NCBI RefSeq assembly: GCF_945915485.1
Contig: NZ_CAMEFJ010000001.1
Coordinates: 1 to 64,000, forward strand
Direction of reading: 5' to 3'
Length of the DNA: 64,000 nucleotides
From: an uncultured Agrococcus sp.
GTDB lineage: Bacteria; Actinomycetota; Actinomycetes; Actinomycetales; Microbacteriaceae
A model generated the notes under the pieces. The model saw nothing but the letters and a program-made list of their open reading frames with translations, made no database searches and was not told the origin of the DNA. This document shows positions 64 to 63,002 of this stretch, piece after piece. A program made the position numbers and the translations under genes. Positions within the stretch are counted from its first letter, which is position 1; each line of letters starts with the position of its first letter.

Positions 64-133
64 ACACTTCTCGGTCTATACATGGCGACACGCCGGTATA
101 TCGCGTTCACTCCACGCATGAACCGAGAAGTGT
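64..133. repeat. 70-nt palindromic dispersed repeat, copy A
   Basis: ACACTTCTCGGTC...(N44)...AACCGAGAAGTGT; shares ends and the core GGCGACACGCCGGTATA with copies at 61192 and 62287. Confidence 0.9.
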
Positions 134-37493: not shown

Positions 37494-37563
37494 CAACTTC
37501 TCGGTCCCTGGGCGCCGACACGCCGTAAATCAGCCTTCCCGTCGCCAGGCGACCGAGAAGTTG
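37494..37563. repeat. 70-nt palindromic dispersed repeat, copy B (diverged)
   Basis: CAACTTCTCGGTC...CCGACACGCCG...GACCGAGAAGTTG; same length and terminal stem as copies A, C and D; 6 nt from both convergent stop codons. Confidence 0.85.
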
Positions 37564-60459: not shown

Positions 60460-61176
60460 ATGACCGACCTGACACCAAGAACCGTGCTCGTTACCGGCGG
60501 CAACCGCGGCATCGGCCGTGCGATTGCCGAAAGTTTTGCCAAGTCCGGCCATCGCGTCGCGGTCACGGCACGCAGCGGGGAGGGCCCGGAAGGGACCCTG
60601 ACGGTACGTGCCGATGTGACCGACAACGCTTCCGTCGATGCGGCGTTCTCGGAGATCGAGGAGAAGCTCGGCCCGGTCGAAGTCGTCGTGGCCAACGCGG
60701 GCATTACTCGGGACACCCTGCTGATGCGCATGTCGGAGGAGGACTTCTCCGACGTTCTCGAAACGAACCTGACCGGGGCCTTCCGCGTCGTTAAGCGTGC
60801 AAATAAGGGCATGCTGCGTGCGAAGTTCGGCCGTGTCGTCTTGATCTCCTCCGTTGTCGGGCAGATCGGCGGCGCGGGCCAGGTCAATTACGCAGCCTCC
60901 AAGGCCGGGCTGGTTGGCATGGCGCGTTCGATCACGCGGGAACTCGGCGGCCGCGGTATCACCGCGAATGTCGTAGCACCCGGTTTCATCGAAACCGACA
61001 TGACCGCTGCGCTGCCGGAGGAGCAGCAGCAGCAGTATAAGCAGCAGATTCCGGCGGGGCGTTTCGCGTCATCCCAGGAAGTGGCGGACGTTGTCCGCTG
61101 GGTGGCATCCGACGAGGCCGCTTACATCTCGGGAGCGATCATCCCCGTCGATGGTGGCCTCGGTATGGGCCACTGA
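60460..61176 (+). CDS. fabG: 3-oxoacyl-ACP reductase / SDR
   Basis: VLVTGGNRGIGRAIAESFA; NYAASKAGLVGMARSITREL. Confidence 0.93.
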   Translation: MTDLTPRTVLVTGGNRGIGRAIAESFAKSGHRVAVTARSGEGPEGTLTVRADVTDNASVDAAFSEIEEKLGPVEVVVANAGITRDTLLMRMSEEDFSDVLETNLTGAFRVVKRANKGMLRAKFGRVVLISSVVGQIGGAGQVNYAASKAGLVGMARSITRELGGRGITANVVAPGFIETDMTAALPEEQQQQYKQQIPAGRFASSQEVADVVRWVASDEAAYISGAIIPVDGGLGMGH

Positions 61177-61191
61177 CCCCCCTCGACGCGA

Positions 61192-61261
61192 ACACTTCTC
61201 GGTCTATGGATGGCGACACGCCGGTATAGCCCGTTCATTCCATGCATAGACCGAGAAGTGT
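61192..61261. repeat. 70-nt palindromic dispersed repeat, copy C
   Basis: ACACTTCTCGGTCTATGGATGG...CCATGCATAGACCGAGAAGTGT, 21/22 complementary arms; 2 mismatches to copy D. Confidence 0.95.
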
Positions 61262-61312
61262 TCCGTCTCAGCACGAGTGGTTGACGGGTCTGGATACCGG
61301 TGCGGACCGCTG

Positions 61313-62170
61313 CTATCGCGTGTGATCACCGCGAGCGACAATGCGGCAAATGTCGTCAAGCGCCGCTTCCAGGTGCCGCATCACCTGCCAGTACGTAAGT
61401 CGAACCACTATGTATCCGGCTGCAACCAGGCGTCTGTCCCTCGCACGGTCTTCTTCGAATCTTTGGGCACCGCTGTGGAACTCCTCGCCATCCACTTCCA
61501 CGATTAGTCGCTCTCCGATGAGAAAGTCCACACGATCTCGGCCGATTCGCACCTGCTGTCGGAATCGGATTCTTCGTCGCCTGAACCCCAACTTCGTGAT
61601 GGATTCGGCTCCAGATTCGGATTTGCTGCCACAGCGAGCCAGTGCGCGACTCGCCTTCGTGTCGCCTGAGCCAGCGAGTCTCTCGATGGACGTTCGTCCC
61701 ATGAATCCTAATTGCAATACCGATTCGAAGAGCACAACCAACCAGTCATCGGACTGGCAACGAATCGCGGTGACGAGGGCATCCTCGACGGAGTCGACCG
61801 CATGCTGACATGAGCGAGCATCCCGCTCCGGTGAGGCGCAGATAAGCACGTTGGGCAGGACGTGAGGAACCTGACGTTGTCGATATTCAGTCCGACGAGC
61901 GTGGACGTGATCGCCCTGCCTGTCAAACCAGACCGGCGTCCATACTCCATGATGAGACAGAGCTGACACGCAGCTGACAACCGCCCCGGAGCGGATCGCA
62001 GCTTCAACTCCGGCATGACAGTCAGGCAGCCCGTACCAGCCATATCGAATGCGTTTTATGCGCCCACTTTCCGCCGCCGCTTGTATTGTTCTCGGGCTGT
62101 AGCCCTGTTTGATCAAATGCGAGCGCCGGACCACGCCCCCGTATCTTCTGGGAAACTCTCGAGACAACAT
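61313..62170 (-). CDS. AbiEi-like winged-HTH plus DUF559/Vsr-like endonuclease-domain protein
   Basis: N-term RSHLIKQGYSPRTIQAAAESGRIKRIRYGWYGLP (AbiEi antitoxin-like); C-term SGAESITKLGFRRRRIRFRQQVRIGRDRVDFLIGERLIVEVDGEEFH (PD-(D/E)XK-like). Confidence 0.85.
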   Translation of the reverse strand: MLSREFPRRYGGVVRRSHLIKQGYSPRTIQAAAESGRIKRIRYGWYGLPDCHAGVEAAIRSGAVVSCVSALSHHGVWTPVWFDRQGDHVHARRTEYRQRQVPHVLPNVLICASPERDARSCQHAVDSVEDALVTAIRCQSDDWLVVLFESVLQLGFMGRTSIERLAGSGDTKASRALARCGSKSESGAESITKLGFRRRRIRFRQQVRIGRDRVDFLIGERLIVEVDGEEFHSGAQRFEEDRARDRRLVAAGYIVVRLTYWQVMRHLEAALDDICRIVARGDHTR

Positions 62171-62286
62171 GCATCGAGAATGGCGATTGAAAGCTGCAGA
62201 ATGCCGCTTTCAAAAACGCCTATGTGGAGAGTTTACGAAATCTCTAACCTGTTGGGCGCGGACCGAAACACTTGATCCGGTTGGAT

Positions 62287-62356
62287 ACACTTCTCGGTCT
62301 ATGGATGGCGACACGCCGATATAACCCGTTCATTCCATGCATAGACCGAGAAGTGT
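62287..62356. repeat. 70-nt palindromic dispersed repeat, copy D
   Basis: ACACTTCTCGGTCTATGGATGGCGACACGCCGATATAACCCGTTCATTCCATGCATAGACCGAGAAGTGT. Confidence 0.95.
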
Positions 62357-62363
62357 GCCCCGA

Positions 62364-63002
62364 CTAGGTGAGGTGGGGGAGGAGGTTTCGGAAGTCCGGG
62401 CGATCGATGATCACATCGGCTGCCTCCCGGAGCACCGTCTTGGCGCAGAACGCGACGCCCAGGCCTGCGGCCTCCACCATCAGCAGGTCGTTCGCTCCAT
62501 CGCCGATGGCCATAGTGCGCTCGGGCGGGATGCCCAGATTCGCGCTCAGAGACAGTAGCGTGTCGCGTTTGGCGGCAGCGTCGATGACAGGCCCGACGGA
62601 ACGCCCCGTCAACGCTCCGTTCTCGACCTCGAGCCGGTTCGCGCGCGTTATTCGAATGCCGAGTCGCGCGGCCAACGGATCCAGGATCTCGTGGAATCCT
62701 CCTGAAACCGCAGCAACTGCTCCTCCCGCGCCCTGAACTGCGTCGACGAACTCTTGCACCCCGTCGGTGACGCGCACACGCTCGACGACATCCACCAGCA
62801 CCGACTCGGGAACACCCTGCAGCATCAGCAGTCGCTCGCGCAGGGAGTCGGCAAAATCAAGTTCGCCGCGCATCGCCCGTTCAGTGACCTCCTCGACGTG
62901 GGCCCGAGCATCGGGGCCGACCGAATCCGCGATGAGCTCGATCACCTCGTCACGAATCAGGGTGGAGTCGACGTCCGAGACAACGAGCCATGGTTCAGCC
63001 AT
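62364..63002 (-). CDS. serB: Phosphoserine phosphatase
   Basis: VVSDVDSTLIRDEVIELIA; AVSGGFHEIL; AIGDGANDLLMVEAAGLGVAF. Confidence 0.95.
   Translation of the reverse strand: MAEPWLVVSDVDSTLIRDEVIELIADSVGPDARAHVEEVTERAMRGELDFADSLRERLLMLQGVPESVLVDVVERVRVTDGVQEFVDAVQGAGGAVAAVSGGFHEILDPLAARLGIRITRANRLEVENGALTGRSVGPVIDAAAKRDTLLSLSANLGIPPERTMAIGDGANDLLMVEAAGLGVAFCAKTVLREAADVIIDRPDFRNLLPHLT

Follow-up and report, generated by a model that had tools for sequence, protein, structure and literature searches.

The window analysed here is a stretch of 64,000 nt from the genome of an uncultured Agrococcus sp. (G000). A fabG-like and a serB-like gene converge in it on a segment that holds a single intact open reading frame, and this frame lies on the minus strand between two near-identical palindromic repeats, copies C and D. 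The features of the window are as follows.

64 to 133, plus strand: solo palindromic repeat, subfamily A
37494 to 37563, plus strand: solo palindromic repeat, subfamily B (cognate to the paralogue on contig C14), between two convergent genes
60460 to 61176, plus strand: fabG-like gene, left flank of the insertion site
61192 to 61261, plus strand: copy C of the palindromic repeat (subfamily A), bracketing the nuclease gene on its downstream side and lying 3' of fabG
61262 to 61312, no strand: spacer of 51 bp from copy C to the nuclease stop codon
61313 to 62170, minus strand: nuclease gene, 285 aa, AbiEi-like winged helix plus DUF559 / PD-(D/E)XK, EDxHD-type nuclease
62171 to 62286, minus strand: segment of 116 bp from the start codon to copy D, presumed from its position to hold the nuclease gene's own promoter
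62287 to 62356, plus strand: copy D of the palindromic repeat (subfamily A), bracketing the nuclease gene on its upstream side and lying 3' of serB
62364 to 63002, minus strand: serB-like gene for a HAD phosphatase, flanking the insertion site on the right

Copies C and D are in the same orientation and identical at 68 of 70 positions, and alignment bears out the sequence-only reading, which had given two differences and a single minus-strand gene between the repeats. The further copies it had placed at 64 and 37494 are both real; the first is 89% identical to copy C, but the second belongs to subfamily B rather than to subfamily A, with the same outer arm. With up to three mismatches, the arm ACACTTCTCGGTCTATG occurs six times in the window, against an expectation of 0.13. 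Folded as RNA together with short flanks, copy C reaches -51.3 kcal/mol (z = -9.5), and the single-stranded DNA z-scores are -8.5 for C, -7.3 for D, -4.0 for the copy at 37494 and -6.1 for that at 64, so that all four fold far more stably than shuffled sequence. A search of Rfam at the repeats gave no match. The nuclease gene is less GC-rich than its neighbours at third codon positions (GC3 of 0.60 vs 0.75–0.77).

The encoded protein matches DUF559 (PF04480) at 3e-11, with 43.6 bits against a Pfam cut-off of 20.6. An AbiEi match over residues 8–77 is found in PADLOC (1.5e-8), the winged helix being placed at about residues 8–78, while AbiEi_3_N and AbiEi_4 stay below their Pfam cut-offs; the proposed combination of an AbiEi-like winged helix with DUF559 therefore stands fully for the second domain, and by PADLOC but not by Pfam for the first. 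NCBIfam has no family for the protein. The nuclease domain spans residues ~187–280 and contains E189, D215, E225, D227, H232 and D241; across 106 proteins there is no variation at E189, D215 or D241, and 95–99% keep E225, D227 and H232. In the C-terminal half of an AlphaFold model, whose confidence is moderate (pLDDT 58), helices and strands follow one another as alpha-beta-beta-beta-alpha-beta-alpha, the order of the PD-(D/E)XK fold. The best match of this moderate-confidence model among solved structures is the catalytic domain of the homing endonuclease I-Bth0305I, followed by the DUF559-like 3hrl, and its N-terminus is matched by an AbiEi structure; the fold match to 3r3p has a probability of 1.00 and an E of 0.025, and no structural match passes E 0.001. 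By sequence, phmmer reaches 3hrl at 9e-4. Conserved E, D, H and D residues in a Vsr-like / PD-(D/E)XK fold, the fold being that of the moderate-confidence model, make this an EDxHD protein. Enzymes of the I-Bth0305I type in that group dimerise on targets of nearly 60 bp (PMC3943268), a length close to that of the palindromes described here (61–70 nt). The alignments thus place the protein in a large actinobacterial family with a predicted AbiEi-like winged helix and, as judged from its residues, an intact EDxHD / PD-(D/E)XK active site. Proteins of this kind carry the annotation 'AbiEi family antitoxin domain-containing'. Relatives occur once in phage records and five times in plasmid records, and a plasmid search with the whole repeat-gene-repeat unit gave no match.

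The key result is that the bracketing recurs: the window case is one of a recurrent architecture. The closest paralogue, at G000:C14:38044-38886, is 65% identical to the window protein and lies between two direct subfamily B copies, which are separated by 1125 bp and show no difference over 66 nt. A set of 106 distinct homologous proteins was drawn from Agrococcus and from other families of the Actinomycetales; the genes of 49 are flanked on either side by palindromes that have at least 9 nt of arm in common. Controls gave far less, at 1.7% for mismatched upstream and downstream flanks and 0/23 for serB, and direct flank-to-flank alignment agrees with the count. The upstream palindrome typically ends 60–140 bp before the start codon, and the downstream one starts around or just after the stop. 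By the same shared-arm test 57 of the 106 homologues have no bracket, and none was found at three Tsukamurella plasmid relatives.

Several further arrangements were seen. Two other nucleases of the window genome, on G000:C82 (L127) and G000:C97 (L128), are bracketed by other repeats, namely an 86-nt GTCACGAAAAGTTGATCGTGCCGT...GTCAACATTTCGTGAC and a GCTTCTTTT...AAAAGAAGC element. In G012 (Candidatus Agrococcus pullicola), the nuclease nearest the window clade adjoins a divergent hairpin TTTCTCGGTCT...AGACCGAGAAA (L130, G012:C322 6811-6873), and a second bracket is not visible there because the contig ends just past the gene. The strongest palindromes found, two of 72 nt with 32-bp perfect arms, bracket a nuclease at L202/L280 in G026, from another family of the order.

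The window palindrome is itself a dispersed repeat. BLAST with the 70-mer finds 22 loci in the window genome, and a pattern built on the arm, which takes in subfamilies B and C as well, finds 57 exact-arm palindromes there, against none for the reversed-pattern control. Ca. A. pullicola has 21 copies in an incomplete assembly, and BLAST with the 70-mer gave no match in the other 22 Agrococcus genomes. A pattern scan of GTDB r220, from which records of or near the window's own genome may be absent, found Ca. A. pullicola only. The family is confined to two Agrococcus species, and both genomes with subfamily A are incomplete. The elements measure 66–70 nt and have arms ACACTTCTCGGTC. A third subfamily, C, has arms ACTTCTCGGTGC and a length of 69 nt, and occurs at L144:11212 and L139:1791 in the window genome and on contigs C194 and C367 of G012. 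Of 32 placeable copies in the window genome, 19 are at convergent junctions, 11 are co-directional, two divergent and none inside a gene, whereas only 7 of the 51 gene junctions in the window are convergent (binomial 2e-9); these placements rest on a simple purpose-made gene caller, which on a 400-kb stretch returned 383 genes and 90% coding. Of 10 orthologous subfamily A sites compared between the window genome and G012, three (L003/L097, L005/L100 and L010/L101) are conserved as sites but have the asymmetric core of the palindrome turned round with respect to the neighbouring genes.

Each clade of the nuclease has its own palindrome. The families, among them the ACTTCTCGGTC type of the window clade and the CTCAAC-, GCAGGCGAT-, GCACAACGCAAGCC- and GCTGAGATGTGCAC- types, follow the protein tree. 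Over the 49 bracketed loci, protein identity is correlated with the shared arm word (Mantel r = 0.59, with 0/2000 permutations as high), and a shared word of at least 9 nt is found in 88% of pairs above 60% protein identity but in 1% of pairs at 20–30%. Dispersed copies behave in the same way. The GCAGGCGAT family has 51 copies in G007, 26 in G008 and 35 in G014, all of which carry the cognate clade, and zero copies in 16 of 18 genomes without it; the CACAACGCAAGC / GCACAACGCAAGCC family has 4–23 copies in six genomes with its cognate clade and 0–5 elsewhere (rank tests, p = 9e-5 and 3e-4). Orphan palindromes without a cognate nuclease occur in a few genomes, above all G010 (5 and 6 copies). 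The expectation that repeats would track the presence and clade of the nuclease is therefore upheld clade by clade, but not for the protein family as a whole, as DUF559/AbiEi nucleases are also present in Agrococcus that lack the window repeat.

The palindromes also appear to be maintained as palindromes. Brackets of clade III are nearly all exactly 61 nt long, from TCAAC to GTTGA, though their cores differ, and in clade I the arms are conserved and the cores variable. Within the 17-bp arms, both sides have changed at 12 of 17 pairs (76 cells vs 27.9 +- 3.9 when shuffled), and such compensatory changes are far above those in slid registers. By this measure the arms are under selection for pairing. 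Such constancy of length and paired change would follow from the binding of both arms by one protein surface at a set distance, or from a hairpin or cruciform serving as substrate. Nuclease and palindrome very probably form a specific, co-evolving pair, as judged from these sequence comparisons.

Comparison of related genomes reveals three states of a site. Between fabG and serB the window genome has repeat-gene-repeat, G012 has one repeat and no nuclease, and G005 has no repeat, so the single-repeat, empty-site allele that had been proposed as a check at this junction was found in Ca. A. pullicola, and a repeat-free one in another Agrococcus. At L159, G009, G018, G023 and G016 have the repeat-gene-repeat form with a different arm sequence in each, G003 has a solo palindrome, and G013 and G014 have no repeat; L164 is filled in G015 and G003 and empty in G001. 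At each of the sites fabG-serB, L159 and L164 the gene is thus present in some genomes and missing in others. Turnover is also evident over a 400-kb stretch that is syntenic between G007 and G008 (~91% identity) and has ~18 GCAGGCGAT palindromes in the former and two or three in the latter. Some doublets of one genome correspond to a single copy in the other, and eroded remnants stand at two sites of G008. One nuclease of G008 has no counterpart at the matching place in G007, with 96% identity between the flanks. Across the genomes compared, sites switch from having no repeat to having a solo repeat or the gene between two repeats. In the loci searched, solo palindromes have no nuclease remnants beside them, and solos therefore need not be excision scars. 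No target-site duplication was found, the G007/G008 junctions being too eroded to define one.

Two details of the G007/G008 comparison may be added. Facing a G008 nuclease unit, G007 has an unrelated long palindrome, CGTCACGAGACCACGCGA...TCGCGTGGTCTCGTGACG, at G007:C1 ~2319930-2320020, so one site can host different palindrome families. On the same contig two palindrome subtypes, with inner lengths of 55 and 57 nt, often stand side by side ~92 nt apart in a BIME-like manner (e.g. 2145073-2145220, 2226098-2226246 and 2326141-2326289), and G008 has single copies at two of these.

The segment between fabG and serB is probably one copy of a selfish repeat-nuclease element. Many of its relatives, on the sequence comparisons above, share two direct copies of a fixed-length palindrome around the gene, arms that co-diversify with the protein, and further copies scattered over intergenic, mostly convergent, sites of the genome. 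We lean towards regarding them as a new class of mobile element of the Actinomycetales, in which winged-helix EDxHD nucleases would recognise, copy and disperse long palindromes, one palindrome to a lineage, as an independent invention of a REPtron-like system with a hydrolytic PD-(D/E)XK enzyme. The nuclease would act as a dimer, its winged helices bound to the two arms of the cognate palindrome in cruciform or duplex form, and would cut within the core or close to it. Break repair with a repeat-gene-repeat copy as donor would then bring the gene into a solo palindrome, and RecA or single-strand-annealing recombination between the direct copies would remove it again and leave a solo palindrome. 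Recognition of the cognate palindrome is a strong inference from the pairing of clades and arms; cutting and copying are inferred from the active site and the three-state sites, and the homing step in particular is put forward tentatively. Homing into solos together with loss by recombination between direct copies would explain the architecture and the alleles. Homing alone does not account for palindromes at sites that previously had none.

Palindromes may reach such new sites by a hairpin route like that of REPs. That the whole element uses such a single-strand route, with the hairpin excised and inserted by the nuclease at replication, the solos being non-autonomous and the bracketed gene autonomous, is rather unlikely. 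It would fit the dozens of solo copies at unrelated sites, the conserved pairing and length, and the core orientation flipped at 3 of 10 orthologous sites. The location of copies at gene 3' ends and convergent junctions (19/32 vs 7/51) is likewise that described for REPs (PMC3733652). However, there is neither a GTAG-like tag nor a Y1 domain. PD-(D/E)XK enzymes hydrolyse DNA and are not known to form a covalent intermediate, so strand transfer would need host factors.

A domesticated role, with the palindromes as operators, terminators or chromosome-architecture sites to which the protein binds and with its own brackets serving autoregulation and termination, is improbable. AbiEi-type winged helices do regulate their own operon, most palindromes lie just 3' of genes or between convergent genes, and the arms of clade I are conserved around variable cores. 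Regulation would have no need of the conserved nuclease active site, however, and the lineage-restricted families, species-level presence and absence and rapid turnover look selfish; one genome can also hold several paralogues, each with its own repeats. It is very improbable that C and D do no more than terminate fabG and serB, with the nuclease gene incidental, as the sequence-only reading had offered in competition with its own proposal. Both copies are at convergent gene ends and could terminate transcription, but the same two genes have one copy in G012 and none in G005, and bracketing recurs with different sequences at 49 of 106 homologues and with another subfamily at the paralogue in the same genome, which contradicts that account. 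The palindromes could lastly be MITEs, or could travel with an unrelated transposon of which the transposase is absent or has escaped notice, the nuclease being a passenger. Palindrome families without a known transposase do exist, such as the CGTC REPs (PMC3733652), and both subfamily A genomes are incomplete; but each palindrome family goes with a clade of its own within one and the same nuclease family, also in the single-contig, near-complete genomes G007 and G014, which makes this explanation extremely improbable.

If the repeat-nuclease element is read as proposed, it bears on the origin of bacterial dispersed palindromes, a long-standing question, since several families (e.g. CGTC REPs) have no known enzyme. 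It provides many natural enzyme-palindrome pairs with co-evolved specificity, with empty, solo and filled alleles and with paralogous pairs in one genome, and recognition, cutting and spread are therefore directly testable. A common protein for which 'AbiEi antitoxin domain-containing' or DUF559 is the sole annotation would gain a function, and the family would be a source of long-site nucleases, with the sequences flanking each gene showing the specificity of its enzyme.

The kind of element is apparently undescribed. The open-access literature searched, which covered no preprints and few subscription journals, holds no description of DUF559/AbiEi proteins with palindromic repeats, mobile elements or REPs; as the tests for REP/RAYT also fail, we rate it as new within that literature. 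REPs are defined as palindromes of 20–40 bp with a GTAG tetranucleotide at one end (PMC3733652). The elements of the window genome have no GTAG tag, and the Y1 (HUH) transposase PF01797 was found in 0/24 Agrococcus genomes by a search that detects it in 5/14 known genomes, so the system is not REP/RAYT; the comparison with REP/RAYT made from the sequence alone survives as an analogy. Integron attC sites were also considered and dropped, as the ends do not fit.

The likeness to REP/REPIN-RAYT systems (REPtrons) lies in dispersed intergenic, often convergent palindromes, in a single dedicated nuclease gene flanked by them (found here at 49/106 loci) and in one lineage-specific repeat family per nuclease. 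In contrast to REPtrons, the nuclease is of PD-(D/E)XK / EDxHD type with an AbiEi-like winged helix rather than a Y1 HUH transposase, and the palindromes are longer (61–90 nt), of fixed length and without GTAG, with brackets that are direct copies. By analogy with REPs and RAYT, the constant length and the compensated changes of the arms point to the entire palindrome as the substrate, though of an unrelated enzyme. With EDxHD / Vsr-like homing endonucleases it shares the best structural match, I-Bth0305I, which binds a long target (about 60 bp) as a dimer (PMC3943268), and the E...D...E-x-D...H...D residues; unlike I-Bth0305I, these are free-standing chromosomal genes between two copies of a many-copy palindrome, with an AbiEi-like DNA-binding domain and no intron or intein, and they are rare in phages and plasmids. 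The N-terminal winged helix recalls AbiEi, the antitoxin of a type IV toxin-antitoxin system, but here it is fused to a nuclease and the window gene has no adjoining AbiEii nucleotidyltransferase; an AbiEi/AbiEii system was rejected, with AbiEi below its cut-off and fabG- and serB-like neighbours. As with MITEs and solo LTRs, short non-coding copies outnumber the coding element and solos stand at sites occupied in relatives; in contrast to both, no IS transposase is seen, the terminal direct copies are complete palindromes and the coding gene is a nuclease.
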